A stretch of 42,414 bases of DNA. It comes from a virus. The stretch covers positions 1-42,414 of IMG/VR virus record IMGVR_UViG_3300009537_000048. One strand, given 5' to 3'. Positions 6,277-35,700 of the stretch are shown in pieces; position 1 is the stretch's first letter, and the number at the start of each line of letters is the position of its first letter. The notes under the pieces were generated by a model that was given only the letters and a program-made list of their open reading frames with translations, was not told where the DNA came from and searched no databases. The position numbers and the translations under genes were made by a program.

Positions 6277-6738
6277 GTGGCAAAAAAGAAGTCGAGCGAT
6301 GACAAGCCCGTCAGCCTTGATGAAATGAAGGCGGCTCTCGCCTTGTCCGAGGAAAAGGCCAAGGAGATAGAGGCAGAGGAACAGCGTCAGGAAGATCAGA
6401 GGGCTTATGAGCGTGCATTGGAGCGACTTCCAAATCGTGCCAGCCCACTGAAGGAGATGGAATTCGTTCGCACGCATCCGGCAATGAGCCGCAAGGATCG
6501 AGGCGAAGAAAGGGTAGTACTCCAAGCGGCAGACATCAAGAAAGCCCCGAGCGTGTTCGCAGCTCAGCAATTGCAGCATTGGTGCAATAAGCCGGAGGAA
6601 TTCCACAAGCAGATGATCGGCCTGCAGCGGAAGAAGGTCGAAGCCGGTGAAGGCGATGAAGCCGTAGGTGATGACGGCCCGGCAGAAATCTCAAGAATCG
6701 ACGAGATGCTTCAGTTACTCGATGGATCTGTCAAATGA
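6277..6738 (+). CDS. Candidate small terminase subunit (TerS), 153 aa
   Basis: The gene starts at GTG 6277-6279, with GGAGGG 6 nt upstream; no in-frame ATG exists upstream. It ends overlapping the large terminase (ATGA). Residues ~15-60 form an acidic coiled coil (EEKAKEIEAEEQRQEDQRAY), then comes a conserved-looking core (LPNRASPLKEMEFVRTHPAM) and a helical segment (SVFAAQQLQHWCNKPEEFHK). Small terminases bind the phage packaging site as rings and hand DNA to TerL. Position and size fit that role, but I do not see a clear DNA-binding helix-turn-helix, so the assignment rests mainly on context. It is the first gene of the late operon. Confidence 0.5.
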   Translation: MAKKKSSDDKPVSLDEMKAALALSEEKAKEIEAEEQRQEDQRAYERALERLPNRASPLKEMEFVRTHPAMSRKDRGEERVVLQAADIKKAPSVFAAQQLQHWCNKPEEFHKQMIGLQRKKVEAGEGDEAVGDDGPAEISRIDEMLQLLDGSVK

Positions 6739-8741
6739 TCGAGATGCCGGAACTTTCCAACGAGCGACTGAGGCACAAGTACGTTCCGACCGATCTGATT
6801 CAAAACCTTCGGTTCCGCCGAGATCTGCTGATTCGCTGCGAGAATAGCCGCAAGTGGCGAGATGCGATCACGCAGGTTTGCCGCGAGGACGTGATCTTCT
6901 TCTTCAATTCTTTCTGCTGGTGTCTCGAACCGAGGCCGAGGTATTACGACAGAATCAGCAGAACAGTAATTTCCGAGATCGATGTGACGGAGGATATCCG
7001 ACAAGACCTGATCGAGATGCCAGCAGAGATTCCGTTCATCGCATGGGAACACCAGATCCCGCTGATCTTGCAAATTCAGGATGCGCTCGGAAAGCGAGAT
7101 ATCGGAGTAGAGAAGAGCAGGGGCGAAGGAGCGTCATGGATTGGAATTCTTCTCGCTGTCCACGAATGGAAGTTTCGGCGCCAAGCGACTATCGGTATGG
7201 TTTCCAAAGATGAGGAATCAGCTGACGATCCAAACGATCCGAACAGTTTGTTTTGGAAGATCGACTTCACGCTGAAGATGTGGCCGAAGTGGATGGCAGG
7301 AGAACGCAACGTACATTGGAAGCGAAATCTGAACCAGCACACTTTGATCAACCTTGTGACCGGATCATCGATCAGCGCCTATGCAGCTGTCGGAAATGTT
7401 GCCCGTGGTGGACGTGCAAGGTGGTTCTTTTCTGATGAGTTAAGCGCTTTTCCTCGCCCAGCAGACCGCGATGCTATGGCGGCAACACAGCACGTGACTG
7501 AATCGCGATTGGTCGTATCAACGCCGCTCGGAGCCGAAGGCGCTTACTACGACTTCATGCACGAACCGAGCAACAGGCTGAAGCTCGTTCTCGACTGGAA
7601 AGACAACCCAACGAAGAATCGAGGTCTGTATCGCCTGATCGAAGGGAAGCCGGTTGCCGATGATCCGATCAACAATCCGCTTCCACCCGATTACGATCCG
7701 CCATCGAACCGCGTGCTCGAGATGTACGGTCGATTGCGGCGAAGAGGATTCAAGCTCGAGAACAGGCTTCGCAGTCCGTGGTACGACAACGAATGTGATC
7801 GGGCAAGCGCCACTCCTCAGAACATCGCGCAGGAATTGGATCGCGACTACGGCGGCTCGAGCTATCGCGTGTTCCTGGATGGATTCTTTACCAAAGCCGA
7901 GCAACACTTGTCTCAGCCACTTAGTGTCGGTGACATCAACTTCGGCCTGGAGATTCTGGATCAAGTCCGGTTCGACACGGTCGACGGTGGTCCGCTGAAG
8001 CTTTGGGTGCCTCTCGATTCACTCGGCAATCCGATTCAGCGCCCATACGTGTTCGGCTGCGACATTTCATCAGGGACGGCAGGTTCGTACACGTCCAACA
8101 GCACGATCGTCGGATTCGATCAAGTAAGCAAGGAGCAAGTTCTCGAATTCGCGATCAACTCGATGCCTCCAGCACATTTCGCTGATTACTGCATCGCAAT
8201 CTGCAAATGGTTCCACAATGCGTTTCTGATCTGGGAGGCAAACGGTCCAGGGACGGCATTCGGCAAACAGGTCATGGAGAGGATGTACCCATCGATCTAC
8301 TGGCGTCGATCGCTCGATAGCCGCGGGAACCAGATGACCAAGAAAGCGGGATGGTGGACTGACAACAAGTCCAAGGAGATTCTGTGCAGCCAATTCGGGA
8401 TGGCGGTGACCACCGGTGAGCTGACTCTGCGATCGAAGGAACTGAAGGAGGAATGCGGCCGATACGTTCGCAAAGGTGACAAGATCATCAACGCCTTGGT
8501 CCAGAACGCCCCAGAGGATTCGACCGGCGCGAGCCACGGTGACCGCACGATTGCCGCTGCGATTGCCTATCAGGGATTCAAGGCCAGGCCATGCACGCAG
8601 TCTGAAACATCCTATATCAGTAGCAATCCACCCGAGGGATCGATGGCGGCACGGATGAAGGAGTATGATGAGCGGATGGCGAGGGAGCGAGCCGACGACG
8701 GCTGGCAGGGCGGCAAGACATTAGATTCTATTTGGGTGTGA
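6735..8741 (+). CDS. Large terminase subunit (TerL), ATPase-nuclease packaging motor
   Basis: TerL pumps DNA into the prohead using ATP and cuts it with an RNase H-like nuclease. The 668-residue protein shows the expected order: an adenine-binding region, a Walker A-like EKSRGEGASW (126-135), a Walker B-type WFFSDELSAF with D234/E235, and a coupling segment VSTPLGAEGA (261-270). The nuclease domain has acidic residues at D443 (GCDISSG), E501 (WEANGPG) and D603 (HGDRT). Length is somewhat above the family norm. It overlaps TerS by 4 nt and precedes the portal by 1 nt, so the three are co-transcribed and probably coupled. Confidence 0.92.
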   Translation: MIEMPELSNERLRHKYVPTDLIQNLRFRRDLLIRCENSRKWRDAITQVCREDVIFFFNSFCWCLEPRPRYYDRISRTVISEIDVTEDIRQDLIEMPAEIPFIAWEHQIPLILQIQDALGKRDIGVEKSRGEGASWIGILLAVHEWKFRRQATIGMVSKDEESADDPNDPNSLFWKIDFTLKMWPKWMAGERNVHWKRNLNQHTLINLVTGSSISAYAAVGNVARGGRARWFFSDELSAFPRPADRDAMAATQHVTESRLVVSTPLGAEGAYYDFMHEPSNRLKLVLDWKDNPTKNRGLYRLIEGKPVADDPINNPLPPDYDPPSNRVLEMYGRLRRRGFKLENRLRSPWYDNECDRASATPQNIAQELDRDYGGSSYRVFLDGFFTKAEQHLSQPLSVGDINFGLEILDQVRFDTVDGGPLKLWVPLDSLGNPIQRPYVFGCDISSGTAGSYTSNSTIVGFDQVSKEQVLEFAINSMPPAHFADYCIAICKWFHNAFLIWEANGPGTAFGKQVMERMYPSIYWRRSLDSRGNQMTKKAGWWTDNKSKEILCSQFGMAVTTGELTLRSKELKEECGRYVRKGDKIINALVQNAPEDSTGASHGDRTIAAAIAYQGFKARPCTQSETSYISSNPPEGSMAARMKEYDERMARERADDGWQGGKTLDSIWV

Positions 8742-8742
8742 C

Positions 8743-10557
8743 ATGACACGAGCATCAACACTATTCGGATCACACGTTTCCAAGACGCCTGTCTACAGCA
8801 AGACAGAGGCTCAAAACCCAGAGTTTCGTCTGAAGAATGCGATCGGATCGTCCTACCGCCAGCTGAGGCAATATCGAGTCGGTGTGCGGCGTCTGAACGA
8901 AGCCTACGCAGGTCCAGTCTACGGTGCGGAATCGAGCGGCGAGGACTATTCAGGCAAGCCGGAAAAGTTCCTGAATCTTCTCAAACAAGCTTTGTCGGCG
9001 CACATCATGCTGCTGGCGAGCAACAATCCGCAGGTTCTTGTGACGAGCCACAAGCTCGAGCGTCGACCATTCGCCAAGACATACCAACTGGCGATGAACA
9101 ATCTTCTCAAGAGGATCAACTTTCAGGCAACGATGGAACAATGGGTGAGAGACGCATTTATTTGGATGGGGATTGTTCGTGTTCACATGGCCGACAGCGG
9201 AAGGACGGTTCATGAGGGCGATCTCTACATGGATCCAGGCATTCCGTTTGTCTCGAACATCGCCCTGGACGACTTCTTCTACGACAGCAACGCAAAGAAG
9301 TGGTCTGAGTGCCAGTTTATGGGCGACCTGTATCGTCTTCCGGTGGAGACCGTCAAGAATTCCGGACTGTATTCGGGGAAAGAGGTGGATGACCTCCAGC
9401 CGACCAGCAAGTTCAGCGGGACCGAGGAACGAGTTCAATCTCTGTCATTCGGCTGGGAATTGCAGGACGACGAGCTTCAGCCTATGTGTGATCTGTGCGA
9501 TGTCTGGCTGCCGCGGAAGAAGGTGGTTCGGACATACGTCGTGAAGGCACGATCGACCGACAACCTGATCATTCACGGCGATCCGGTTGCTGAGAACAAA
9601 TGGACTGGAAGCGAGCTTGGACCGTACAAACAAATGCATTTCGACATGGTCAGCGACAACATCATGCCGCTGTCGGTCGCGGCTGATCTGTATCCGCTCG
9701 ACCGCATGATCAACAACATCTTCCGAAAGAACAATCACAAATCGCGCCGACTGAAAGAAATTCACCTGTTCACGCCAGCGGCAGAAGACGACGCAAATCG
9801 CGCGAAACGAGCCAGCGACGGAGATTTCATCCAGAGCAATGCCCCTAACGAGATCAACACGATCAAGACTGGTGGCGTCGATCCGGGGCTGCACGGCTTC
9901 ATGTTGAACGGCATCGATCTGTTCGATCGGATCGGCGGCAACCTGCCGGCAATCCTTGGCCTGGGAGCTTCGAGCGATACTGTCGGCCAAGAAAAAATCA
10001 TCGCGGCTGGAGCGAGCGGCCGGATGACACAGCTACAGGGCTACGTCGAAAAGCCACTGACTGAATGCATTAAGGACCTTGGATTGCTGTTGTGGAATGA
10101 CGAATTCACCGAACTTCCGCATCGTGTAGACATCGATGGGCTGCAGGGATTCTCCTACGACGCATCGTGGGTTCCAGGGAATCGAGACGGAGAATTGACC
10201 GATTACGATATGTCGGTCGACGTCTATTCGCTGCAGAGTCAGGGGCCGGGACAGCGATTGCAGGCGGTGAATCAATTACTCGGACAGCTTTACATTCCGC
10301 TGCTTCCGATGCTCCAGCAGCAAGGCGGCACAATCGACTTCCCGCGTCTGGTGCAATTCCACGCGGAGATGATGAATCTCCCAAGATTGACGGAAATCGT
10401 CACGTTTTCGACCCCTCCGATACAGAACGATGGGATGATGGGTGGCGGAAAGTCGCCAACCTCGACACGGAATTACGTGAGAGAGTCGGTCAGCGGCGGT
10501 CAACAGGGCGGTGCGCCAGACGCACAAGAATGGCTGAAACAGGCTTCACAGGCTTGA
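8743..10557 (+). CDS. Portal protein, 604 aa
   Basis: The portal forms the dodecameric ring at the capsid vertex through which DNA enters and leaves, and docks TerL and the tail adaptors. The product is long, mixed alpha/beta and lacks catalytic motifs, as expected. It has an N-terminal helical segment (LRQYRVGVRRLNEAY), a stem/wing region (ALSAHIMLLASNNPQ; FQATMEQWVRDAFIWMGIVR) and a C-terminal glutamine-rich helical barrel (LLPMLQQQGG). The start is 1 nt after the TerL stop. It is identified by gene order, length and general portal sequence character. The 67-nt gap after it holds a small inverted repeat (CTAAT/ATTAG at 10577-10592) but no gene. Confidence 0.85.
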   Translation: MTRASTLFGSHVSKTPVYSKTEAQNPEFRLKNAIGSSYRQLRQYRVGVRRLNEAYAGPVYGAESSGEDYSGKPEKFLNLLKQALSAHIMLLASNNPQVLVTSHKLERRPFAKTYQLAMNNLLKRINFQATMEQWVRDAFIWMGIVRVHMADSGRTVHEGDLYMDPGIPFVSNIALDDFFYDSNAKKWSECQFMGDLYRLPVETVKNSGLYSGKEVDDLQPTSKFSGTEERVQSLSFGWELQDDELQPMCDLCDVWLPRKKVVRTYVVKARSTDNLIIHGDPVAENKWTGSELGPYKQMHFDMVSDNIMPLSVAADLYPLDRMINNIFRKNNHKSRRLKEIHLFTPAAEDDANRAKRASDGDFIQSNAPNEINTIKTGGVDPGLHGFMLNGIDLFDRIGGNLPAILGLGASSDTVGQEKIIAAGASGRMTQLQGYVEKPLTECIKDLGLLLWNDEFTELPHRVDIDGLQGFSYDASWVPGNRDGELTDYDMSVDVYSLQSQGPGQRLQAVNQLLGQLYIPLLPMLQQQGGTIDFPRLVQFHAEMMNLPRLTEIVTFSTPPIQNDGMMGGGKSPTSTRNYVRESVSGGQQGGAPDAQEWLKQASQA

Positions 10558-12208: not shown

Positions 12209-13246
12209 ATGGCGTTGACACCTGATCAAGTAGACGACTTCGTTCAGTTGACGTTGAAGAATTTCAAGCGGTACAAGTGGACGGACATTTCGCTGCCGTT
12301 GCAGTTCTACACCGCGTCGAAGATGTTCGACGAAAAGAAAGTGACCGAAGCCGGCGGAGAACAAATCAGCTGGCGGATCAAAACGAAGAACACCGGAAAC
12401 GCGCGGAACACCGGGCTGTTTGCGGTCGACATCACGAAGGTCGAAGATGTTGCGACCGACGCGAAAGTCCCGTGGAGCAAAACCACGACGAACTGGTCCT
12501 ACGACATTGACGAGGACGGCTTTCAGAGCGATCGCGAAACGATCGTCCGCCTGCTTCAGATGCGAGAGCACGACGCTCTTTCCGATCTCGCACGGCTGAT
12601 GGAGGAGAATCTCTGGACGGCGCCGACAGGAACGACCGACACTCGGCCGATGGGAATTCCTTTCTGGATTCAGAAATCCAACACGACTCCGGCCGGTGGA
12701 TTCACCGGTGGTGACCCGGCAAACTTCTCGGCTGGCGCTGGTGGCGTGAGCGTTGACGACTATGCCCGTTGGAAAAATTGGTCATTCAACTACACGGCAG
12801 TTTCCCGCGATGACTTGGTGAAGAAGTTGAAGAAGTCGGTCGTCTTCACCGAGTTCCGTCCGCCAGTTCCGCATCCGGAAACGGGATGGGGGCAGACGGA
12901 TTACGAGATGCACACGACCTACGATGTGCAGGAGCCGTTGGAGCGGCTCGCGGAGACTCGCAACGACAACCTCGGCGCGGATGTGGCTCGCTACATGAAC
13001 CAAGTGGTGGTCGGCGGCATTCCTCTTGGATGGGTCCCGTACCTGCAAGAGAACGAGACATCGGATCCGATCTACGGATGCAACTACAGCGTGCTTCGTC
13101 CGTTCGTCAAGAAGAACGCCTTCATGCGTCGCAATCCGCCGAAGCAAGCGGCGAGGCAGCACTCGGTACGAGAGGTACATATAGACTGTTGGTATAATAT
13201 TTTGTGTACCAGTCGTCGAGAAACTTTCGTCGGTTACATCGCTTAA
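12209..13246 (+). CDS. Major capsid protein, 345 aa
   Basis: The start is ATG 12209 with a strong GGAGAAGAGAAG site. The length and order (directly after the scaffold) fit a HK97-fold coat protein. The N-terminal half contains E-loop-like and spine elements (ISWRIKTKNTGNARNTGLFA; REHDALSDLARLMEENLW). The C-terminal half ends in a typical coat pattern NPPKQAARQHSVREVHID followed by YNILCTSRRE. The last 60 bp are notably AT-rich (TATAATATTTTG) compared with the rest. No protease or fused scaffold is present. This is the most abundant protein expected in the virion. Confidence 0.85.
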   Translation: MALTPDQVDDFVQLTLKNFKRYKWTDISLPLQFYTASKMFDEKKVTEAGGEQISWRIKTKNTGNARNTGLFAVDITKVEDVATDAKVPWSKTTTNWSYDIDEDGFQSDRETIVRLLQMREHDALSDLARLMEENLWTAPTGTTDTRPMGIPFWIQKSNTTPAGGFTGGDPANFSAGAGGVSVDDYARWKNWSFNYTAVSRDDLVKKLKKSVVFTEFRPPVPHPETGWGQTDYEMHTTYDVQEPLERLAETRNDNLGADVARYMNQVVVGGIPLGWVPYLQENETSDPIYGCNYSVLRPFVKKNAFMRRNPPKQAARQHSVREVHIDCWYNILCTSRRETFVGYIA

Positions 13247-15348: not shown

Positions 15349-17802
15349 ATGGCGATAACTCCTGCAATGACGGGCATGAGCGGCATGTCCGGGATGACTG
15401 GCGGCTTCCTTCCCTCTAAACTGTCGAATCTTCGGCAGTGGTTTCTGGATAACTCTGGCTATCGATCCAGCGAGCTGAATGGAATTCCTGTCCTTGATTC
15501 CAAGGAATCATACGGGACGTATCGGCAGCCGCGTCAGGGAAGGTGCTACAACTTCGACAACACAGACGATCGAGTTGATTTGCCGGCGGCTGTTAACACG
15601 ATGTTTTCGCAAGCCAATGATTTCTCAATTGGAATTTCGTACATTCATTCCGCAGCAACCGGACACATCTTTTCCTCTTTCAATTCAAGTACCGATCGGT
15701 TTGTCATTGAGGACACTGGAAGCTCGCTGAGATGCAACGCCTACGATGGAACAAGCAACGGGGCCTCCACGACCACTACGCTTGTCAACGGAACCGTTTA
15801 TCGTATTTTTCTTTCTTGGGTCAATTCTACGTCGACGCTGAGTTTATGGATCGACTCTACGTTGCAGACTGGAACCCTTGCCGGTTCTCTTGGAGCAGGA
15901 GCCCCAGCGGCTTACCTGGGAGTGCTCACTTCCCTCACTAGCAATTGGGGCGGGAATCTGTGGGACGTTCGCTGTTATAATTCGGCGTTGAGCGATCCAG
16001 CGGACGAGGCCACGACAGCGCCGACATTCCTCTATCACTGCAACGAAGAATCGGGACTGACGGCCTACGATTCTTCCGGCAACGGCGCAGACGGCACACT
16101 CACCAACATCACCCAAAGCACGTTCCACGCAACTGATACTGGAGTGACGTCGAATCCAGCGAACGAAGTTGGTTACAGCGAGAGCGGCGCAGTCATCGTA
16201 CCGAGAGACGAATCTGACACAGACAACGACGTTCTTGGAAACCCACTGGACTACACCGGCAAAACTCCGTACCCAGCTCAGGTGAACACGCCATGCGTGA
16301 CACTCGACGGCACGGATGACTACATTGCGATGACCAACACGGTCAGGGACGTTATGACGACCGCGTCAGACTGGTCGATCGCGCTGAAGGTTTACGTGCC
16401 CACTGGTGCAGCAGGCGGGGACATGATCCTTAGTGTTACCGGGGCAGTTGGCAATGACAGGGCAGGAATCGAGTACAACGGTAGTGCTATCCGGTGCGGT
16501 GTTTGGGATGGGGCATGGATTGCAAAGTCAGGCGCGTTTTCTCTGGATACGTGGCACGAGATTGTTATGATCTATGATGCCTCTCCGAGAGGATTAACTG
16601 TTTACGTTGACGGGGCAGCGCTGGCTGGTTCAACGAGTCCGACATCGAATGGAACAGTAGCGGCAAACATTGGAGCACTTACAGCTGGCACGCTTGCGCT
16701 GGACGGACGCATCGCTGACGTCCGAATCTTCAACAGCAAGTTGGCGTCTGAAGCAGAGGCAAGAACTGTCACGCCAACACACTATTACCCGATGCAGGAA
16801 GGGGCTGGGAATATCGTCTACGACGTTGGCAGCACAGGAGGAGAGCACGGCACGATCACGAACGCTGCTCTTTCGGACTTCTGGGCCAACACGACCAACG
16901 ATGTAGAGGATCATTCGATCCTCTACGGCGGACAAAATATATTGTTCTTCAACGGGACAAGTGACTACGTTCGCCTGGATTCTGCGATCACGACAGGAAC
17001 GACGTTCTCGATTGCTGCGTGGGTCTATTTGCCAAGCTCGACGTCGTTTAGTTTCATTATCAACAACACTGGCGCGACGATCGGTCTTATTTACCGCAAT
17101 GGAAGCAATAAGTTCTCGTACTACTTCTCTTCGTCGGACCATCTGAGTGACACAGCTCTTCCGTCTGGATGGGTGCATGTCGTCTTCAGCGTTTCGTCTG
17201 GCACCGGAACCTTTTACGTTGACGGAACTGCTGACGGGACAGTTGCTTCGGTGCCAACCGCAGACTTACAGGACGTTGGGGGTAAGGCGGCTGGAGGAGC
17301 AAGTTTCAGTGGGCCGATGTACGACATTCGCGTTTACAGTGATGCATTGAGTTCAACGGAAGCTCAGTATCTGGCGTCAAACGGCGCGAGCGGGGACGAT
17401 CCTGGGACAGACAACCTGACGCTTCATCTCAAGTTTGACGGTGACGCGACTGATTCATCTGCAAGCGGAAACGATGGAACCCTTAACGGTCCGTCATTCG
17501 CGTTCGTTGGTGCCGATCCCTCCGCAGGAACGGTTTATCTTGGAGGAGAACCATCCCCGTCGCGCGTCGCCAACAAGCTCGGTAACGTCAATTCAGAGAT
17601 TGACACAAATCCCTATACAGCGGCCGAACTGAACGCACTCGGCGCAGAGACGGATTACGCGCTGACAGACACGCGGCAGGACGTTTCACCCAACGACACC
17701 AAATTCCGTCGTACAGACACGGATGGCGACGATCGTTTCTTCACGGTAGATACTGCACTAACAGGGGCCAACAAGACAGACGCGGAGGCGTATGTGTCAT
17801 GA
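15349..17802 (+). CDS. Tail or head fibre-like protein with three LamG/concanavalin repeats, 817 aa
   Basis: The protein is built from three copies of a LamG-type jelly roll. Their opening strands read CYNFDNTDDRVDL (about residue 66), CVTLDGTDDYIAM (about 315) and LFFNGTSDYVRLD (532-544). Each is followed by a FSIA/WSIA strand and ends in a D(V/I)R(C/I/V)(Y/F) turn. Each repeat is linked to a connector of the type EGxGxxxYDSSGNGxDGTLTN, present near residues ~230, ~485 and ~695. Such domains bind glycans, so host-surface binding is likely. The first 30 residues are a Met/Gly-rich tail. It starts with a strong TAGGAG site and overlaps the next gene by 4 nt. Confidence 0.75.
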   Translation: MAITPAMTGMSGMSGMTGGFLPSKLSNLRQWFLDNSGYRSSELNGIPVLDSKESYGTYRQPRQGRCYNFDNTDDRVDLPAAVNTMFSQANDFSIGISYIHSAATGHIFSSFNSSTDRFVIEDTGSSLRCNAYDGTSNGASTTTTLVNGTVYRIFLSWVNSTSTLSLWIDSTLQTGTLAGSLGAGAPAAYLGVLTSLTSNWGGNLWDVRCYNSALSDPADEATTAPTFLYHCNEESGLTAYDSSGNGADGTLTNITQSTFHATDTGVTSNPANEVGYSESGAVIVPRDESDTDNDVLGNPLDYTGKTPYPAQVNTPCVTLDGTDDYIAMTNTVRDVMTTASDWSIALKVYVPTGAAGGDMILSVTGAVGNDRAGIEYNGSAIRCGVWDGAWIAKSGAFSLDTWHEIVMIYDASPRGLTVYVDGAALAGSTSPTSNGTVAANIGALTAGTLALDGRIADVRIFNSKLASEAEARTVTPTHYYPMQEGAGNIVYDVGSTGGEHGTITNAALSDFWANTTNDVEDHSILYGGQNILFFNGTSDYVRLDSAITTGTTFSIAAWVYLPSSTSFSFIINNTGATIGLIYRNGSNKFSYYFSSSDHLSDTALPSGWVHVVFSVSSGTGTFYVDGTADGTVASVPTADLQDVGGKAAGGASFSGPMYDIRVYSDALSSTEAQYLASNGASGDDPGTDNLTLHLKFDGDATDSSASGNDGTLNGPSFAFVGADPSAGTVYLGGEPSPSRVANKLGNVNSEIDTNPYTAAELNALGAETDYALTDTRQDVSPNDTKFRRTDTDGDDRFFTVDTALTGANKTDAEAYVS

Positions 17803-18302
17803 GCGTGAGAATTTACGGTCCCGATTCGCTTACTCTGCCGGCAGGAATCGGCGGAGACCGTCTGGATAGTGTTCGGATCAAGCGGGATGTGATCGCGAGT
17901 TCGCTTGGCGGCGGTCAGACGGCTCTGATTGGTATCTCTCGGGATAGCATTCCGCTGGCCGATGCGAAACGGATGGTCAATGCAGGAGCAACGATCTACG
18001 GTCTGGAAGTCTGGTTCGAGCTGGTCACTGCCGCGGTGCTCGACCGACCACATCCTCTGGCTCCCGATCGATCCCCGCGTCCGACCGAGACTTGGGCCGA
18101 ATACGGAGTCTTCGGTAATTCGCACGCTCCTGTTGGACCATTCAGCGGCAAGTATTACCGCAGCAGTTGTATTGGTGTGAGCGGTGAACCTCTGGAAGCA
18201 TCGCTATGGACGGATTGGATCGACAGCCCGCCATCTGGCGTTGTCGTCAAGACAGTCGATGAAGTGAGAACGATCTTTGACACGATCACGATCGGAACGT
18301 AA
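17799..18302 (+). CDS. Hypothetical virion protein, 167 aa
   Basis: ATG 17799 overlaps the stop of the LamG protein (ATGA), and its own stop overlaps the next ATG by one base (TAATG). It is therefore tightly coupled to the adaptor genes. The protein is beta-rich (IYGPDSLTLPAGIGGD; ATIYGLEVWFELVTAAVL) with a tyrosine-rich middle (GKYYRSSCIGVSGE). No family is recognised. Position between the fibre-like and adaptor genes suggests head-tail completion. Confidence 0.55.
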   Translation: MSVRIYGPDSLTLPAGIGGDRLDSVRIKRDVIASSLGGGQTALIGISRDSIPLADAKRMVNAGATIYGLEVWFELVTAAVLDRPHPLAPDRSPRPTETWAEYGVFGNSHAPVGPFSGKYYRSSCIGVSGEPLEASLWTDWIDSPPSGVVVKTVDEVRTIFDTITIGT

Positions 18303-18979
18303 TGGCACTTCACACACTCACTTACGATCAAGTCGCCAGGGAATTGGGACGTCGACTGCATGTCGGCGAAGATCCCGATGATTGGGATACGCTAACGTCT
18401 CAGCAGATGGATGACGTGATCTTGCGTGGGAGCCGGATGCTCTACTTCCCTCCTGCGACGATGATCTCTGATCAAGCACTCGTGAACCACAACTGGTCGT
18501 TCATCGTCGAATCGTTGAGCATGACGCTGAGCGATGCAACGACCTACAACGACTTGCCTTCTGACTTCGTTCGACTAACAGGAAAGCCGACGATCGCTGG
18601 ATCCGAATACCCGCTAGAGCCAATTTCCGAGGCGAAGATTCGAGCGTTGTCCAGCGCATCGTCCGGTCTTGGTGATCCGCAGTATTACCATATCCGTCGC
18701 GAGACTCCGAGCAGCGCCGATCTGCTGTATCAGATCGGAGTTTATCCGCAACCAGTTGGCGACAAGACACTGACAGGCGAATACGTCTTCGATCCGACAG
18801 TGGCGTCTGAAGCTCAGGACCCGATCGTTCCGTCATGGGCAGCAGAAGCCTATCTTGCGGCTCTGTACTACGCTGGCGACATGCTTCTGAATCACCCAAA
18901 CGTCGACCCGAAGCTGGAGGAAAACTTCAAGGAGTTGTTGGCAGCGAGCATTCTTTGGGACAAAGGAATCAGCGGATGA
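18302..18979 (+). CDS. Tail adaptor-type protein, copy 1 of a triplicated domain, 225 aa
   Basis: This protein begins with a helical segment (YDQVARELGRRLHVGEDPDD) typical of phage head-tail adaptors (gp4 of P22 and gp11 of T7 families). From about residue 61 it carries the pattern NHNWSFI...YNDLPSDFVRLTG, then DPQYYHIRRE and a beta segment ending LTGEYVF. The same pattern occurs twice in the next gene. The C-terminal helix (PSWAAEAYLAALYYAGDMLL) is the usual adaptor end. Adaptors bridge portal and nozzle. The start is coupled (TAATG), and the stop overlaps the next ATG. Confidence 0.7.
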   Translation: MALHTLTYDQVARELGRRLHVGEDPDDWDTLTSQQMDDVILRGSRMLYFPPATMISDQALVNHNWSFIVESLSMTLSDATTYNDLPSDFVRLTGKPTIAGSEYPLEPISEAKIRALSSASSGLGDPQYYHIRRETPSSADLLYQIGVYPQPVGDKTLTGEYVFDPTVASEAQDPIVPSWAAEAYLAALYYAGDMLLNHPNVDPKLEENFKELLAASILWDKGISG

Positions 18980-20622
18980 TCATCAATCAAGTCTTCAATA
19001 CGGTGGACGTCGAATACGGCACCTACAACTGGCTGCGTCGTGAGGTCTGCTTACAGAATGGATTCGACGGCGACCACGCCCTTCTCGGCAAGTCAGAGCG
19101 AATGTGGATCGATTCGATCGTCGAACGCGGATTGATGCAATTCGTCAATGCCGAGTGGCCAACGGTTCCGAATCCTCCCGATACTCCGATCGGCGAAGGG
19201 CGTGAGCCCGACCAGATGCACGCCGAAGCGGCCAAGGAAATGCGTCGACGGCCACCACATCGCTGGTCGTTCATGCATCGAATCCACACGATCACGACAG
19301 TCGCTGGGACCTACGAATACGAATTGCCGGTAGACTTCGGCGGAATCATTGACGAACCGACAACGCGTCGTCAGGGAGGAAGGATAGCGATCGTCCGCGA
19401 ATCTCACATCCGACAATTGGTCGAATCGGACGGCGAGAGCGGTGACCCTCGGTACTGTGCCCTTCGCCGAAGCAACATCGGCGGCGCGGAAAGGATGAAG
19501 ACCGACTTGATTCTCTATCCCAATCCGGATGCCATCGAGACGATTTCAGTCGAATATCGTGCGAATCCGGAAACATTGAGTGATTCGATCCAGTATCCTC
19601 CTGGTGGAATCGAGCACGCGGAAACGATTCTGGCGTACTGCTTGATGGTGCTTGCCGAGCGGAAAGGGGAGATTGGAGAGCAGCACATCGCGCGGGTTCA
19701 GCAGCGTCTTGTTTCCTCGATCGTGCTCGACAAGGCCAGCGACAAGCCAACGGCCGATGGCGTCTGGATCGAGGATGACGGTCGATTCAATGCAGCCTGG
19801 CTGTCGCGGATGGTCGGTCGCCACATCGGAGCCGGGCCGAATCCGAAGGTCTGGACGCACGCGCAAGAGCAGCAGATCGCCGAGATCATTCGTCAGGCAC
19901 GCCGAAAGGTCTACAGCCCACCAGTGCTCCCAGGCGAAATCAAGTCGCACGACTGGAGCTTCCTGCGTCAGATCGGCCACATCACCACAGCGAGCGGTGT
20001 GTGGTCTTACGATCTGCCTCGTGACTTCGTCCAGATGTACGGCCCGGTGTTCTATAGCGGTGGCGGTGACGTCACGGACAGCGACGGGAACACGGTCGCG
20101 GTCGGAACGGTTCTGTATCGCGCCTTGCAGGTTCGCGGCGAGGCGGAACTGATGCAGCTTCTTCAGCGGCAGGAGGCATCGACGCGGCCGACGATCTGTG
20201 CGATTCGACCGAAGAAGTACAACGAAGCGGAAGGAAGTCGCTGGGAAATGCTCGTATGGGCGGTTCCCGATGGAGCGTATCCTCTTGAATTCAGGTATCG
20301 CGTCAATCCAGACACCAGCGTTCCGAATTCACTGCCGGCAATCGTCGAGCACCTCGACCTGCATGGCGGCGACCGATTCACATCGATGTACCTCGAAGCC
20401 GCGTTCATGTGTGCTGACTTCTTCATGGGAAAGAAACGCAGCGAGCACGAAGAACGATTCCTGCGCGAGGTGATTTCAGCGGTGGCTCAGGATCGTAGCT
20501 CATCATGCCCTGATTCTCTTGGCTACAATGCAGACTGGAGAGGAAACAGAGATGAATACGGCTATCGCGACCATCATGATCTAGATTCCAACGTGGTGAC
20601 GGTGAACGGAGCCATCTGGTAG
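18976..20622 (+). CDS. Tandem tail adaptor-type protein, copies 2 and 3 of the domain, 548 aa
   Basis: The start is ATG 18976-18978, overlapping the previous stop (ATGA); the upstream in-frame region is only the neighbour's antiframe. The protein is twice the usual adaptor length because the domain is repeated. Copy A (residues ~92-200) reads HRWSFMHRI..GTYEYELPVDFGG. Copy B (~322-450) reads HDWSFLRQI..GVWSYDLPRDFVQM. Each ends in a strand pair and xxEYRANPETL / FRYRVNPDTSV. Helical bundles with IEHAETILAYCLMVLAERKG and VEHLDLHGGDRFTSMYLEAA close the halves. It probably occupies the same ring position as two adaptors. The last ~45 residues are hydrophilic and poorly patterned. Confidence 0.7.
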   Translation: MIINQVFNTVDVEYGTYNWLRREVCLQNGFDGDHALLGKSERMWIDSIVERGLMQFVNAEWPTVPNPPDTPIGEGREPDQMHAEAAKEMRRRPPHRWSFMHRIHTITTVAGTYEYELPVDFGGIIDEPTTRRQGGRIAIVRESHIRQLVESDGESGDPRYCALRRSNIGGAERMKTDLILYPNPDAIETISVEYRANPETLSDSIQYPPGGIEHAETILAYCLMVLAERKGEIGEQHIARVQQRLVSSIVLDKASDKPTADGVWIEDDGRFNAAWLSRMVGRHIGAGPNPKVWTHAQEQQIAEIIRQARRKVYSPPVLPGEIKSHDWSFLRQIGHITTASGVWSYDLPRDFVQMYGPVFYSGGGDVTDSDGNTVAVGTVLYRALQVRGEAELMQLLQRQEASTRPTICAIRPKKYNEAEGSRWEMLVWAVPDGAYPLEFRYRVNPDTSVPNSLPAIVEHLDLHGGDRFTSMYLEAAFMCADFFMGKKRSEHEERFLREVISAVAQDRSSSCPDSLGYNADWRGNRDEYGYRDHHDLDSNVVTVNGAIW

Positions 20623-20644: not shown

Positions 20645-21454
20645 TCATCCACACTTCCGTTTTCGATTCGCTTTCTTGCTAACATGGGGAGGCTTTTGAG
20701 ATGGTGGAATGATCGGAGTTTCCAGTGCGTCTTCGATCGTCCATCCATAAAACAGTCTTTGTTTAACTGTTCCATAGGAAATATCGCAGGTTTCTGCAAG
20801 CTCGGAAGCAGTTTTCAGTTCGCCTTTGTAGCGATACAGCTTCGCGTTTTTCTTTCGATTCAATGGAGCTTTAACTGCTTCTTCGGGTTCCCATCCAAGT
20901 TGACGTATTCGAGCTTTGGCTGTTGTGTAGCTCATCCCAAATTCCTCGCACCACTCAATCAGGTGCTTGGTTTCTCCATCAATGGTGAAAACGAGGCTGT
21001 TCAATTTATTCCTTGCTTGTTCCGAACCTGTTGCCCATTTGCAGTTGCCAGAAAAATACCCAAGTTCGTTGTCGATGCGTTCAATGCTGTGCTTCGTGGA
21101 TGGTCGTCGTCCCATGTCCTCAATGAAAGCTGCGAACGAATTTCTCCATCGAGAACAGATTGTGATTCCTCGATCACCGTATCTGTCATACGCCGAATTA
21201 TTTGGATTCTCGCATCGCTGAATTATTCCACACCAAGTTTTGTATTCAGGTATCTTGGAATAATGGAAACCGCTCGGTTTTACACCAAGTGGAGTTTCGA
21301 TTGCACGTTCAATCGTCCATCCGTTTCTCAGGCGATTCCTGAATGTGTCATAGGACAGTCCCGTGAATTCTGCCCATTCAGCCAGCGTTTTCTCTTCGCC
21401 ATTGTAGGCGTAACGCTTGCCCCACCGTTTTTTCGTACAATGCTTTTCAGCCAT
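20645..21454 (-). CDS. HNH-type homing endonuclease-like protein, 269 aa
   Basis: The gene is antisense to the late operon, starting at ATG 21452-21454 with GAGGAG 7 nt upstream. The central domain (residues ~68-150) has the pattern YKTWCGIIQRCENPNNSAY, RYGDRGITICSRW, then HSIERIDNELGYFSGNCKWA. I associate this with phage HNH-like nucleases; His122, Asp128 and Asn137 are candidate catalytic or fold residues. Three similar helix modules flank it: ~14-55 (NGEEKTLAEWAEFTGLSYDT), ~155-197 (DGETKHLIEWCEEFGMSYTT) and ~206-247 (KGELKTASELAETCDISYGT). They probably bind DNA target sequence. It is likely a free-standing homing endonuclease inserted between virion genes. Confidence 0.75.
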   Translation of the reverse strand: MAEKHCTKKRWGKRYAYNGEEKTLAEWAEFTGLSYDTFRNRLRNGWTIERAIETPLGVKPSGFHYSKIPEYKTWCGIIQRCENPNNSAYDRYGDRGITICSRWRNSFAAFIEDMGRRPSTKHSIERIDNELGYFSGNCKWATGSEQARNKLNSLVFTIDGETKHLIEWCEEFGMSYTTAKARIRQLGWEPEEAVKAPLNRKKNAKLYRYKGELKTASELAETCDISYGTVKQRLFYGWTIEDALETPIIPPSQKPPHVSKKANRKRKCG

Positions 21455-21929: not shown

Positions 21930-23822
21930 ATGCCTTCACAAGAAGTATCGTTTCCATTCCCGATTCGAGGTCTGACGAAGAACAGAGCGTATCAGGAAGG
22001 CGACACGCAAACGACGAGAGACGCTATAAACGTAATCCCCAGCGATTACGATGAATCGCGGGTGAGGGGTGGAACTCGCCAGGGCTTAGCCAAGCGTTAC
22101 ACCGCTAAGACCGACGCGAGGCCGACATTCGTCGTGCGTGTTAGCGGTGGCGACAGCACCGAGATCTACGAATTCTTGATAATTGGGACGCCAGGAAACA
22201 TCTACAAAGGTGAGAGTGTCGCCAATGGAACCGAACCTCCTATCAGCTATTCGGAAACTCTCAACGCGCTGAGCGGAGAACTGGCAACTGAAGATGGAGA
22301 TACGCTGATCACCGAAGTCGCCAGCAATACGATCATTATCGACGATTTCAATGTCACAGGAATCGATCCCGAAGTAGTCACGCAATACGGTGATAGCGTC
22401 ATTATTGGCAGCGATGGAGAAGTTTTATTCTCAGGCACGGACGGGGATATCAATCCCAGTGGCCAGTTTGATGATGACGCCGGAACGGACTGGACCGATC
22501 CGAATGGAGATGGGATCAGCGTCGACCCAGAGCAACACTACCTAGAAATAACGGCCGACGCGGCAACAACGGCAGAAGTCTATCTTGGAACTTTCGCAAT
22601 CGGATCGGTCAGTTCGACAGTGATTACGCTGACCGCAGATCCTCGTCTGGATACGAGCCAAGCCACCACGACGGGAAAGCTCACATATCAGATCGTAAAT
22701 GCGGTGCGCGACCTGAATCCGAATACCCCGTCAATCGCCACGCTTTCACCGGTTGGCACTGGCGGGTTCATCCCAACGAACGCCGACGCTGTCATTTCAT
22801 ATCGTGATCGTCTGGTGTTCGCGACAGCGCGACTTTGGGAGATGAGTCGCCAGGGAGATCCCGGAGACTTTGATTATGCTGCAGACCCGGAGGATCCAAC
22901 TCACGCGATCGCCGGGACGACTGGAGGTCCAGGACAGCCCGAAGACCCAATCATCACGATGGCGACTGGTGGTTTCGACTATCTCATCCTGTTTTCCGAA
23001 TCGTCAACGTGGGTCATGCGAGGTGATCCAGGTTACGGCGGACAACTCTACCAGTTGTCTGACACAATTGGCTGCGTCGGCCGGAATGCATGGTGCCACG
23101 GAGATGGACAAGAGATCTACTTTCTTGCGAAGGAAGGCTTGTACGTGATCGGTTCTGGCGCCAGAGAACCGCAGCAAATATCTCCGGAGCGTCTGCCGAA
23201 AGAACTCCGCGGTCTGGATCAGGGAAACTACCATCTGACACTGGTCTATGAACCAGATGACGATATTGTTCTGATTTTCGTGTTCCCGAAGCAAGGTACT
23301 GGAGGAACGCACTACGCCTATCACATTGAGACTGATTCGTTCTGGCCGATCAAGTTGATGGATAATTCGTTCCAGCCCGTCGATGGAGTGACGTTCGGAG
23401 GCAATCCAGCCGTTTCACGGAGAGCAACTTTGGTTTGCGTTGATGGATATGTCCGAAACTGGCAGGGGTCAAAAGACGACGGAAAAAACATCACTAGCCA
23501 CGTCGTGTTTGGGCCTTACTTGGCGTCGAAAGAATCAGCCATCGACGGGATAATTCAAGAGCTGAACGCCACGCTCGACAGTGATGGAGCTTCGGCCACA
23601 CTGGAGGTGTATGTCGGATCTAGCGCAGAAGCAGCGTCCGAGGCGGCAATCACAGCGACAAATCCAGCATTCAGCGCATCAATCGGTCCCGGCCGCACAT
23701 ACACAAAACGTCCGCGTATCCGTGGTGTGGCTTTTTGTATTCGCATTTCAGCTTCGGCAGCATGGGCGTTTGAGGGCTTGACCGGAATGATTTCTACTGG
23801 CGGGAAAGTGAGAAGGATTTGA
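21930..23822 (+). CDS. Tail nozzle-like protein (T7 gp12/P22 gp10 role), 630 aa
   Basis: The N-terminus carries the entry typical of podoviral tail tube/nozzle proteins: SFPFPIRGLTKNRAYQEGD followed by TRDAINVIPSDYDESRVRGG. The rest is a long all-beta, acidic chain with repeated strand patterns (VTQYGDSVIIGSDGEVLFSG; YRDRLVFATARLWEMSRQGD; SSTWVMRGDPGYGG). In T7 and P22 such proteins are beta-propeller hexamers that continue the tail channel below the adaptor ring. The gene order (adaptor, then this) agrees. A role as minor tail hub protein is the alternative. The stop overlaps the next ATG. Confidence 0.7.
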   Translation: MPSQEVSFPFPIRGLTKNRAYQEGDTQTTRDAINVIPSDYDESRVRGGTRQGLAKRYTAKTDARPTFVVRVSGGDSTEIYEFLIIGTPGNIYKGESVANGTEPPISYSETLNALSGELATEDGDTLITEVASNTIIIDDFNVTGIDPEVVTQYGDSVIIGSDGEVLFSGTDGDINPSGQFDDDAGTDWTDPNGDGISVDPEQHYLEITADAATTAEVYLGTFAIGSVSSTVITLTADPRLDTSQATTTGKLTYQIVNAVRDLNPNTPSIATLSPVGTGGFIPTNADAVISYRDRLVFATARLWEMSRQGDPGDFDYAADPEDPTHAIAGTTGGPGQPEDPIITMATGGFDYLILFSESSTWVMRGDPGYGGQLYQLSDTIGCVGRNAWCHGDGQEIYFLAKEGLYVIGSGAREPQQISPERLPKELRGLDQGNYHLTLVYEPDDDIVLIFVFPKQGTGGTHYAYHIETDSFWPIKLMDNSFQPVDGVTFGGNPAVSRRATLVCVDGYVRNWQGSKDDGKNITSHVVFGPYLASKESAIDGIIQELNATLDSDGASATLEVYVGSSAEAASEAAITATNPAFSASIGPGRTYTKRPRIRGVAFCIRISASAAWAFEGLTGMISTGGKVRRI

Positions 23823-29754: not shown

Positions 29755-32700
29755 ATGGCCAAATGGACTGAACGCGCGAAGTCTGCAACATTGGAAGCGA
29801 TCGAGCGGGCGAAGGATATAAATCGTCGCATCGAGGAAGAACGCGGCAACGTCCCTGACAGCGCGATTCTTCGCAATCTCCGCGGTGTCGGCAAGACTTT
29901 GGCAGTTCGGTCGCTCGCTGTACCTGCGAAGCTCCTAGAGCCGGTTCTTCCGGGTGCAGCGGAATCTCTGCATCGATCGGAGCGAGCGACGCAGCAAGTG
30001 CTCGCCGAACGTGACCCAGAGACTCCGCTTCCGGACATCATCGAGCGAGGAATGCGAGAGGCAGCCGTCACGTTGCCCCAGATGGCTGTGCTGAGTCGAT
30101 TCGGAGGTGCTAAAGGAATCGTTGGTGGAACGATGGCGCAGGTGTTTGAGCGTGAATATTCCGCTGCTGTCAAACGAGGTGCGAGCCCACGGGTGGCATT
30201 CAAGTTTGCCGGCCAGCAATCCGCGATCGAGGGTGGTGTCACAAGTCTGTTCATGAGTGTCGCCCCTGGACTGGAAGGAATGTTCCTCAAAAGCGGTCTT
30301 TCCAAGGAAGTCGCAGAAGGAGGATTGAAGGGTCTGAGGAAAGGCGTCATAAGCGGTGCAAAGAGTTTCGGCGCTGAGCTTGGTGAAGAAGAACTGATCG
30401 AACTGGCTTCACTGGTCAATTCAAAACTGGCGGGAATGGATCCCAACGCTTCTCTGGAAGACGCCGAAGAGGTGGCGATGGATACCGCCGTCACGACATT
30501 CATTACATGGGGTGCAGCGAAAGGAATCCAAACTGCCGGGAATCGAGCCAAGCGACTTCGTAGCATCCAGGAAGAGATCGAATCGACCCCAGCTGATGTA
30601 GATCAAGGCGCGTTCGTCGACATCACCTACGAAGTCCTCCAGGACGTCGATGAGGTCGAAGTCGACAAGGTCACCAAAGCGCTCAACGATGCCGGCGCGA
30701 CAGCGGATCAGGTTGTCGAAGCTATCAGCACTGTCGTCGATCCAGAGATATCCGAATTCGAGATCAACGGCAACAAGATCCAAAAGCTGGCGCCGGAGGA
30801 ATCACGTCGTCGTCGCCAAGTGATCGAGGAAACCAAGCAGGCTGGCCAAGCCGAGGAAATGACTCCCGAGCAGGCCGCTGTAGCAGCACAGATTCTTGCC
30901 GAGGATGAAGGCTCCCCTGCCCCGGTCGAAGCTCCTCAGCCAACCCCTGCAGCTCCCGCAGTCGTCACACCTTCGCCGACCGTTACACAACCTTCCGATG
31001 CCATCGTCGCCGAAACACAGCAGGAAACAGGGAAACCGGCGCCCATTGAAACCAAGAAGCCGGTAGAAACGCCGACCCAGCAACCACCAGAGGAGGTCTA
31101 TTCTGGATACACGGTAGAGGTCGAAGGCGAAGCAGGGTGGTTCGCCCCAGAGGGAGAGCCAGAGGCAGTCGAGGTTGATGGTGAAGAGCACGAAGTCGCT
31201 TTCTACAACCCCAAGGAAAAGCAAGTCTCGTACTACGACGAGAACGGAGATGAAGTCCTAGTCGATCTTGTAGAGGAACCAGAACCAGAGGCCGCGCCGC
31301 CAGCGAAGAAGCAGCCCGCGCTCAAGAAACCGGCTGACGAGACTCCAGCGGCGCGACCTCCTTTCAAGATGCCGGAACCGTTGGCCAAGGCATCGCCGCG
31401 GTACGGCACTCAGCAACTCCAGTTCGAGTCCGACTACGATCGGGCTGCCTACATCCTTTCAAAGACAGGGAGACCAAGTGCGCAGCAGGCCAAATTCATT
31501 CGGGCACTCGAGGAACAAGGTCACACGATCGACGACGTTCGCCGTCACGGGCGCGAGGTGGTCAGACCTTACATCAAGCAACAGGGCGACACCAAGGCGA
31601 AGAACGTGTTGCGTGTGCCACGATCGGCGATTGTACCGCGGCCGATGGTTAAGCCCGAAGCACCTGCACCGAAGGCACCTCCAAAGAGCGTTGTCGGCCG
31701 GAAGCCCAAGAAGCCTGCGAAGCCTGCTTCCGAGAAGCCAAGTGTGAAGAAGCCGAAAGAGGAGAAGGAACCGAAAGCCGAGAAGCCCGAAACTCCACCT
31801 CAGGCGGAAGAAAAGCCTGATGCTGAAGTGCGTCCAGTAAAGGTGCTCAAGAAGTCTGTTCGGTTCGCACCCGAGACTGTTCTTCCGAATACCGTCAAGC
31901 AGAAGAAGGTCACTGTCCGCGGCAAAGAGTTCATCGAAGTTCCGAAGTCGGAAGTTGACAAGATTCCAGGGTATGTTGGTCCGGAAAAACCTGAGCCCAA
32001 GAAGAAGCCGCCGCAGAAGACTGTTCTCAATAAAAACGCCTTTGACGCTGAGAGCATCAAAGGAAACGAAATGGGAAAGAGAGCCTTGGTCATTGCCTTG
32101 GCAGCAGCTCGACCGGTCAGGTTTGTTGCAGCCAACGAAGGAGCCGAACCATTCATAGCGCAGTTCAGAAAGACTGCAAATAGCCTTGGCATCAAAGAAT
32201 CAGACGATGGAATCCCTGTCCCTGTCGAAAAGCCACCACAACGCGAGATAGATTCCAAATTGCTTGGAACTTCATCGCAGAACATTCTTGACACAGTGAG
32301 TGGGAAGAATATCAATGTTCCGACTGAGTTGGATAGAAATTCCCAAGTGCTACTCAAGGATGCTGTTGAAAAGTTGGCATTGAGCCAGGCCGAATCCAAG
32401 TCCATTCAGGACGTCGCTGGACATATCGCAGCTCTTCAAGATCACAGCGTCATACAAGCAGAAGACATTGCTGAGGCGATCAACCAGCTCACTTACGGAA
32501 GGACAGTTGATGAATCTGTGTCGGCGAAAGTCGAACAAGAAGCGAAGCCTGCAAAGAAGAAGCAGGCAATAAGAAAAGGGACGATCGCTGACAAATTCCA
32601 GAAAGCCAAGGATGAAACAGACGGTGCGTTCCTGCTGTTCAAGATGGGCGACTTCTACGAAATGTTCTATGAAGACGCTGAGTTAGGAGCCAAGTCGCTT

Positions 32701-35700
32701 GGATTGACTCTCACGACTCGTGATAAGTCTAGTGACAATCCAATTCCGATGGCTGGATTCCCTTACCATCAGCTTGATGCTTACATTGTCAAGCTTGTGA
32801 AAGGCGGGAACAAGGTTGCTGTCGTCGAGCAAGTTGACGATAAGGGCAATCCTATTTACGGGGAAACGGTGACACCTGCAAAGAAGTCTGAGCAAGGACT
32901 GTCCTCGGATGCAGAATCTGAATTGGCCAAGTTGATCGAGCGTTACGAAACACAGGCACGCAAAGATGAAGGTGGAGCTGGTATCGCTGTCGGTGCCGAG
33001 AACATCAATTACAGATGGGCTGCCGATGCCTTGCGTCACATGCGAGACAGGATGCGGGCTGGCGACTCTGTTGAGGAAGCAGCAGACTCTGCGAAATCCA
33101 AAGCGAGGGAATGGATTGACAAGCACAACAAGCGTCGGCCAAAAGATGTCAACTGGGCGCGTTCGGAAACCTCGGCTGATTCGTATATCACAAACGCTGT
33201 CCGCGTTTTGAGCAAGAACAAGAAACCAGCAAAGAGCGTTATTCCGAAGAAGGCAAAGAAAGACGACAAGGTGATTATCGGCAAGAAATCACATCTTGAC
33301 GATCAAGGTGTTGTCGAGAGAGCACTTCGTCGTGAACAGGAAAAAGGAAAGCCAGCCTGGTGGGATGGATCTCACCTCTACAGACTTGGCGGAAAGTACG
33401 AACTGACGACAGACGAAAAGGGGAGGCAGACGCTCAGGAAACTGCACAACCTATCCATCGGCGGTATCTTGAATCACTACCCTGGACCAAATGAACTCAT
33501 TTCCACAAATCAAGCAGCAATCGACGCCAAAGCTGAACTTGATGCAAAGGAAGCGGATAAGAAAAAGGCTCGCGATGAGAAAGCAGAAGCCGATCGAGTC
33601 ACCGCAGCCGAAGAAAACCAGCGAGTCCAATCTCTCGACAAGGACATTAAAGATCATATTGCTGTCGTCAAGCTGCGTGGCAAGAAGGAGAAGATCAAGA
33701 TCCTTCTTGGGGATCGGGAAACTGAGATAGAAGCGCCAGCGACGGTGTATGGAAACTTGGCTGTTCACAAGGGCGAAGCAGACAGCAAAGAACGTCAATG
33801 GAAAGTCGCTATCGTTCCTGCCAAAGGAAACATCACAGCGTTTGCGACGAAGAAAGAGGCCACGAATTTCGTGAAGATGATTCACGGCCTGTCTGACTTC
33901 AACATGAAGGACGCTGGAGAGTTGGTCGGCACTCCTGAATACGAGACGATGAAGCTTGCGGCTGCATACGCCAAGTTCGCCGGAATGAAGGTCGATGAAA
34001 TTCAGAAGTTAAGGGATGCATTGGTTGGTGTGACGACGGAAACCAAAAAGCCGAAGTCATCCAAGAAGAAGTCGGGCGACCGTCGTGCGAAAGCTCCAAT
34101 GCTGATTGCGAGAGCCGCCAAACCTTCACCATCGAAACCACAGGCAAAGGCCAATGTCCGAAAAGGTGGAATCGCCAGCAAGATTCAGGAGGATGGTTCC
34201 AATCGGAAAGTTGGTCGTCGATCGATCGCTGAATTCCTGAACAACGCATTCGGCGCTCACATGATTGTCACGACGAGCCAGACGTCCAGGAGTCATCCTG
34301 CTTTGATCCGCAATTCAGGATCGGTCATCTTCACGCGGAGTGGTTCATGGGATCTGAATATCCATGAAGCCGGTCACGCTCTGGACAGTATCCTCGAGTC
34401 TCAGAATCCAAACTGGTATTCCTCGATTGGACCAGAGCTGGAGGTGTTCGCCGCAGATCCAGTTCTTGCTCCGAATGCATCAGCTCCGACAGCAGAGGAA
34501 GGTATCGCTGAATTAGTTCGTCAGTATGTCACAGGACAGGAGACCGATCAGCAGTTGACCGATCGAATGATCGCCGCTGTCAAGCAGACCAGCCCGGAAC
34601 TGCACGCAACACTCGCTGACGCAAGGCAGGCTTACCGACTTCACCTGTCGCGACCGGAGCCAGAACGTGTAGCCGCTGACAGGAATGATCGTCCTGCTGT
34701 CGCCACTGCTGCCAGCCGCGCAGAAGAATGGTTCTGGAGTGCTCTCACTCATATCATCGGCAAAGGTGTGCTCAACCACAGGTATCGACGTCGATTGTGG
34801 AAAGCCGTAACCGGCGAATCAACGGCTGCGATGCTGGATCCAACTGGAGTGATTGGATCGATTCACAAGATGATGAGTGATGAGAAGCGTGCTCGCGACC
34901 AGATTGCGAAAGGTCTGCTAAACGAACGCCGACCTGACAACGTCGAGGTTGTGTACCAGAACAAAATAAGAACTTCGTCTGCCATTCTCCAAGCACTTCA
35001 GGGAAATGGGCTGACGCTCTACTTGTACGGCGATGGATTCAACGCGCTGTCGAAAGAGGATATCCGAAAGCTTCGAGACGCTGGCCTTCCTCTGCCAGAG
35101 AAGTTTGCCAAGCATGGCGAGCCGCAAAGGATCACAACGAAGTCGTTTGAACAGATCACCCAAGCGGTCGGAGACAAGAACTGGCAGGACTTTGAAACTG
35201 CCGTCTATGATCGAGTCGCCTACGAACGACACACGAAGGCTGGGCATGAATACCCTGGCATGGATATTCGATCTCCAGAAGACTTGAAGCGTGCATCGGA
35301 CAAGGCGTTCGAGGAGAACCCTGAATGGGAGAAACACTTTGATGATCTGCAAGAGTTCATGGCGCAGAATCTTCTCGTCGGCATGTTGGGTGGACAGTAC
35401 ACGGTCAATGAGGTCGTCGCGATTCACACGAAATGGGATGTGTACGCTCCACTTCAGAAGCAGATCGAGAACGCGGCGATGGGTGGTGGATCGCGATCGA
35501 CTGAGCCCGACTTTGGTGTTCGACGGGCTCGCGGCACAAGTCAACTGGAGTATCGGCCGCTGAAGGATTCCATCGAAGATCGCGTCAAGCAAGCGGTTCG
35601 CGCCTACACAGATAACGCGATGGCTCTCGCGGTTCGCGATCGGTCTCGCCGGATCGGAAGCGACAAGCGAATCGATTACAAAACTCGCCAGGATATCCAG

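Follow-up and report, generated by a model that had tools for sequence, protein, structure and literature searches.

What would a short-tailed virus build with three adaptor domains? The question is raised by a 42,414-base linear record of an uncultured virus from IMG/VR (the whole stretch analysed, hereafter called the window), in which two adjacent genes, A and B, encode one such domain (D1) and two in tandem (D2 and D3), respectively. Only a single adaptor ring was known in short-tailed phages until five stacked rings, made from separate genes, were described in crAss001 (PMC10172136). Our answer is that genes A and B quite probably supply three paralogous domains, each of which would form a 12-fold ring, that these rings would be stacked into a tail barrel connecting the 12-fold portal to the 6-fold nozzle, and that the barrel length of relatives would change by whole domains.

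The adaptor-domain identity of both products, proposed in a preliminary description of the locus, was confirmed by Pfam. Against a curated cut-off of 27 bits for SU10_adaptor (PF24175), A scored 37.1 bits and B scored 68.6 bits over two stretches, and a per-place search of the window record with the same family gave 45.8 and 37.0 bits. The DNA pattern encoding W-S-F-x17-L-P-x-D-F was found exactly three times in the window, with 0 expected and none in 100 shuffles. When aligned with one another, the three segments also proved to be homologous, as that description had suggested (pairwise BLAST E-values of 2e-12, 2e-12, and 4e-17; Smith-Waterman z scores of 17, 18, and 28, with none of 1000 shuffles scoring as high). 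The three-part motif that it had read in every copy holds for the WSF and LPxDF elements, but not for the third, which is YRANPET in D2 and YRVNPDT in D3 but YVFDPT in D1. In alignment, the three domains are only 26-30% identical to one another, and the duplication must therefore be old. The start codon of gene B overlaps the stop codon of gene A by four bases (ATGA).

The order of portal and capsid genes, adaptors, and nozzle-type gene (Table 1) is shared with gp11 of phage SU10 (Kuravirus), which belongs to the same Pfam family, and was also observed in L154, L160, L098, and L065 as far as these records reach. Within the same limit, relatives keep the order of terminase, portal, capsid, adaptors, a 120-aa gene, and nozzle. 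A scaffold-like gene lies between the portal and major capsid protein genes of the window. The portal protein is 41-43% identical to syntenic ORFs of relatives, and the major capsid protein, which served as the bait for finding relatives, is 38-68% identical across the multi-domain clade. The nozzle-type gene is kept downstream of the adaptors in relatives, and the position of this gene points to its product as the putative nozzle.

Table 1. Features of the window (with window positions) and adaptor-domain layouts of related records
Feature	Position or record	Strand	Evidence or remark
Large terminase	6735-8741		phrog_2, 2e-17
Portal protein, presumed D3 docking partner	8743-10557	+	SU10_portal E 2.5e-4, weak, below cut-off
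Major capsid protein	12209-13246	+	phrog_9953 major head protein, E 5e-5
Gene A, one SU10-type adaptor domain (D1), 225 aa	18302-18979	+	PF24175 E 6e-9; HMM positions 2-220
WSF-x17-LPxDF signature of D1	18494-18568	+	DNA pattern
Gene B, two tandem adaptor domains (D2+D3), 548 aa	18976-20622	+	PF24175 in two stretches, E 1.3e-18; two HMM domains of 139 and 154 bits
Domain D2 (B1), B residues ~8-264	18997-19767	+	best match is D2 of 7/7 other 1+2 genomes
WSF-x17-LPxDF signature of D2	19264-19338	+	DNA pattern
Domain D3 (B2), B residues ~271-510	19786-20505	+	best match is D3 of 7/7 other 1+2 genomes
WSF-x17-LPxDF signature of D3	19954-20028	+	DNA pattern
38-residue C-terminal tail of D3, CPDSLGYNADW...VVTVNGAIW	20506-20619	+	similar tail on most single-domain adaptors
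Nozzle-type tail protein, 630 aa, presumed D1 docking partner	21930-23822	+	phrog_3287 virion structural protein, E 4.8e-7
Layout 1+2	L031/L093/L115, L086/L154, L045/L088/L160, L065, L171, L176, L253
Layout 1+1+1 (three separate genes)	L024/L094
Layout 2+1+1	L009, L275
Three fused domains	L120
Four fused domains	L104
Five fused domains, 1273 aa	L152
Nine fused domains, 2165 aa	L251 (record G026)		repeat spacing 235-243 residues

Several other ORFs of the window were recorded. Directly after the adaptor genes, on the opposite strand, is a 269-aa ORF (20645-21454, minus strand) in which an HNH-endonuclease-like stretch was seen by eye and for which Pfam returned helix-turn-helix matches only. 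In L046, L057, L060, and L080, homologs of this ORF likewise adjoin adaptor genes, and the site thus seems prone to acquiring genes of this kind. Immediately upstream of the adaptors, an 817-aa protein (15349-17802, plus strand) resembles repeated LamG-type modules; it shows weak similarity to an ORF of 1503 aa that lies within the split adaptor gene of L154. A 2820-aa ORF (29755-38217, plus strand), which has no relatives among the compared loci, may encode a virion protein that is internal or ejected.

Direct peptide-pattern searches with B, A, and the portal protein retrieved no relatives because these proteins are too diverged; hence, the WSF-x17-LPxDF DNA pattern and a capsid-protein profile were used. 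More than 200 records, among the matches listed, came from two pattern scans, the first of viral contigs, together with a profile derived from 79 single-domain adaptors and a scan with the capsid profile. Searches of cultured phages with B, A, the capsid protein, the five-domain protein, and the two-domain protein of L065 gave no meaningful E-value, and searches of the sequences of solved structures gave chance matches only. Our own adaptor profile scores SU10 gp11 weakly, and the window domains are linked to SU10 only via the family profile. The capsid profile also matches six bacterial contigs (Pirellulaceae, Brocadiaceae, Verrucomicrobia UBA6015, Cerasicoccus frondis, Sumerlaeota, and one unnamed bacterium), which hints at hosts in or near the PVC group, several of these being short MAG contigs that may be misbinned.

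Most records with a detectable adaptor have one domain and many have more; the share of multi-domain records in the pattern scans is no true frequency, as records with more copies match more easily and several are near-copies of one another. The domain layouts include 1+2, 1+1+1, 2, 2+1+1, 3, 4, 5, and 9, and the arrangement in the window phage is not unique but one point in a series that runs from one to nine domains. Pfam PF24175 itself matches the 1273-aa chain in five stretches and the 2165-aa chain in nine, so that these counts are independent of our own profile. Across most of the 228 profile positions, the domains keep the family pattern. Two further arrangements were seen among the records. 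In a large group (L183 to L244) with capsid proteins roughly 50-56% identical, one adaptor domain follows about 100 extra N-terminal residues, and in L253 (9834-12422, minus strand) an 863-aa ORF contains the first adaptor domain as its C-terminal part, so that this domain may be fused to some other protein.

Comparison of the eight genomes with the 1+2 layout revealed that the domains correspond by position. In 163 of 168 comparisons, the best match occupied the same position, a count that leaves out the fused three-domain L157, where position is not kept; about 56 would be expected without a position effect. For the window domains, all 21 comparisons gave a best match at the same position. 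D2 of the window scored 139-191 bits against D2 of the seven other genomes versus 41-87 bits against their other domains, and D3 scored 93-165 bits against its counterparts, being 56% identical to that of L098. A tree of the domains agrees with position for D2 and D3, with D1 poorly resolved. These position-specific matches indicate that D1, D2, and D3 are old, distinct parts, and such positional orthology suggests that they may have separate roles.

The variation in domain number is best seen in two sister genomes, G009 and G026, which both come from metagenome 3300035199, are syntenic and have capsid proteins that are 83% identical and group as sisters in the capsid tree. The adaptor of G009 is a 506-aa protein with two domains, whereas that of G026 has nine. 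The first domain of G009 is 74% identical to domain 1 of G026 and the second is 72% identical to domain 9. Within G026, domains 1-8 are 56-77% identical to one another, and domain 9 is 32-40% identical to them. Repeats have been gained or lost internally, while the two end domains have stayed fixed. Where tested, the repeats of the nine-domain gene are 65-74% identical in DNA and are therefore not assembly copies. This divergence, the low identity among the three window domains, and the recurrence of the 1+2 layout with positional orthology in eight distinct records make it extremely improbable that the duplication arose by recent accident or faulty assembly and lacks structural meaning, a reading for which nothing speaks beyond the absence of cultured relatives.

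A clue to the orientation of the domains comes from their C-terminal ends. Most single-domain adaptors carry a tail of about 27-45 residues, often resembling LGYNxDxSD...VTxNGxxY. In the window, D3 has such a tail, D2 has none, and the gene A protein stops three residues past the last domain helix, also with no tail. In all ten multi-domain sets that could be fully read, to which this rule is limited, only one domain bears the tail, and it is usually the last. The linkers between the domains of G026, which share a W-P motif, are just 17-23 residues long, so no internal domain carries a tail there. A tail had been expected on every single-domain adaptor, but L061, L068, and L079, with one detected adaptor domain each, lack it; the tail is thus no absolute mark of portal contact. 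Moreover, the tail-bearing gene of L024/L094 is the first of three, which means that gene order is not always ring order.

The SU10 adaptor binds the portal through its C-terminal embracing loop, which is threaded between portal subunits (PMC9509320), and the tail of D3 would occupy the place of that loop. By this analogy, the 38-residue tail of D3 is likely a portal-embracing loop that would thread between portal subunits in the same way. In the T7 adaptor, a C-terminal helix reaches the portal and the alpha1-alpha2 loop contacts the nozzle (PMC6702177). With the C-terminus toward the portal and the N-terminal part toward the nozzle, a tandem chain should run from the nozzle (N-terminus) to the portal (C-terminus), which would place D3 next to the portal, A next to the nozzle, and D2 between them. 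Twelve B chains would then contribute D3 to a portal-side ring and D2 to the ring below, and twelve A chains would form the D1 ring on the nozzle side. In crAss001, the gene order gp34, gp35, gp40, gp43 likewise follows the tail from nozzle to portal (PMC10172136).

From the sequences we infer ring formation, 12-fold symmetry, the order of stacking, and tail length. Family membership was counted in favour of ring formation, as SU10 gp11, the founding member of PF24175 (which it matches at 2.5e-29), is a dodecamer between portal and nozzle (PMC9509320). Single-domain adaptors of the T7 type had been described as 12-mers in the preliminary description, which agrees with the literature (PMC6702177, PMC9509320). 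That description had also envisaged a stacked or mixed collar with different symmetry; we retain the idea of stacking but not that of a different symmetry, given the chains of five and nine domains and the 12-fold symmetry of every ring in crAss001, whose barrel of about 23 nm consists of five dodecameric rings of paralogous ring proteins (PMC10172136). By crAss001 spacing, the barrel of the window phage would measure about 14 nm and that of G026 about 41 nm, and a linker of 17-23 residues could plausibly span the roughly 4.6 nm per ring.

The two domains of B might instead lie side by side, six chains forming a pseudo-12-fold ring in which D2 and D3 alternate, with A as a separate 12-mer ring. 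Such an arrangement would make for a smoother transition from 12-fold symmetry at the portal to 6-fold symmetry at the nozzle. Pseudo-symmetric rings are formed by the fused two-domain tail-tube proteins of P74-26 and T5 (PMC10034513), and the two adaptor subunits per nozzle subunit in T7 and SU10 (PMC6702177, PMC9509320) make alternating subunits plausible. However, since neither 5 nor 9 divides 12, five- and nine-domain chains of the same family and clade cannot tile twelve positions in this way. In addition, close relatives switch between two and nine domains, and D2 lacks the putative portal-embracing tail that D3 has. While side-by-side packing is possible for B alone, we consider this reading unlikely.

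Some relatives have adaptor genes that are interrupted. In L154 (8322-14798) and L160 (4760-9503), D3 is split, with the last helices and the C-terminal tail in a separate 101-aa ORF located 3-6 kb downstream and tail-fibre-like genes between the pieces. An intron was considered for this split last domain and rejected, Rfam having found none in L154 or L159. As the downstream piece in L154 has its own ribosome-binding-like sequence and start codon, and tail-fibre-like genes lie between the pieces, we regard it as part of a split gene. D2 is split at other points in L162 (5663-7878) and L288 (2432-6558), where the gap contains ORFs resembling genes for tail spikes or fibres; adaptor genes seem to be recurrent sites of insertion for fibre cassettes. 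In L102 (7681-9326) and L181 (10513-12052), D2 is contained in two overlapping ORFs broken at nearly the same profile position (94-100), which could reflect a frameshift or a split gene. In L009, L275, L120, L152, L104, L091, and L178, the last domain has an insertion of 64-85 residues right after the LPxDF motif, as does the first domain of L091; this insertion is possibly an enlarged fibre dock.

It may be asked whether just one of the domains is the adaptor ring, with the others serving non-ring roles such as tail-fibre docking or collar decoration. The insertion after LPxDF (64-68 residues in the last domain of several fused relatives), the tail-fibre-like genes inside some split adaptor genes, and the fibre docks carried by the T7 and SU10 adaptors would fit such roles. 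Against them stand the retention of the family pattern over most of the profile and the similarity of the first eight G026 domains to one another, which is as for equivalent ring positions. We therefore regard this reading as very unlikely and favour stacked rings, in which relatives would fuse the same ring domain into chains of 3, 4, 5, or 9, and the gain or loss of whole ring domains inside one protein would change the length of the barrel.

Known systems share some but not all of these features. In SU10, a single adaptor domain gives a single dodecameric ring (PMC9509320), whereas the window phage has three domains, two of them fused. T7 gp11 and P22 gp4 likewise form a 12-fold ring between the portal and the next tail protein but have a single domain and a single ring, unlike the window phage. 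With three ring-type domains in its genome, the window phage resembles the crassviruses, which have several paralogous ring proteins per genome (R1-R5; gp34, gp35, gp40, and gp43 in crAss001). Their 12-fold rings are stacked between the portal and a hexameric muzzle (PMC10172136), whereas stacking in the window phage is proposed from its genes, and the number of rings is thought to vary between crassvirus clades (PMC10172136, PMC10136315). However, crassvirus rings are encoded by separate single-domain genes of other families (PF25710, PF25702, and PF24228), while the window proteins belong to PF24175; A and B did not match the CrAss_Ring_1, _2, and _3_4 Pfam models at E-values up to 1, whereas the crAss001 proteins match their own models. 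Podoviruses with dual tubeA genes (phiGT1 and Bcep22-like phages) also have two adjacent adaptor paralogs in one genome, but these are separate genes of very different origin that were joined by recombination, with no fused chain reported there (PMC10386132). In P74-26 and T5, a ring-forming tail domain has likewise been duplicated and fused, but the two domains are neighbours within a single pseudo-symmetric ring (PMC10034513). Fused multi-domain adaptors were not found in any report among the open-licence papers searched. Stacked rings from separate genes are already known, and fused multi-ring chains appear to be new.

In long-tailed phages, a tape-measure protein sets the length of the tail. 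The series of fused adaptors suggests that the viruses described here may vary tail length through the number of times that one ring domain is repeated within a single protein. Probably, twelve chains run along the barrel wall and place one domain in each of up to nine rings, so that the number of fused domains would set the barrel length as a covalent ruler inside the tube, with no separate tape-measure protein. If this is true, the ruler would be altered by simple gain or loss of internal repeats, and each additional domain would lengthen the tail by the same amount, about 4.6 nm should the crAss001 spacing (five rings in 23 nm) hold here. A fused-ring lineage whose sisters stand seven domains apart would then show the stepwise lengthening of a short tail, and its members would offer a natural series (1, 2, 3, 4, 5, and 9 domains) for testing what tail length does.
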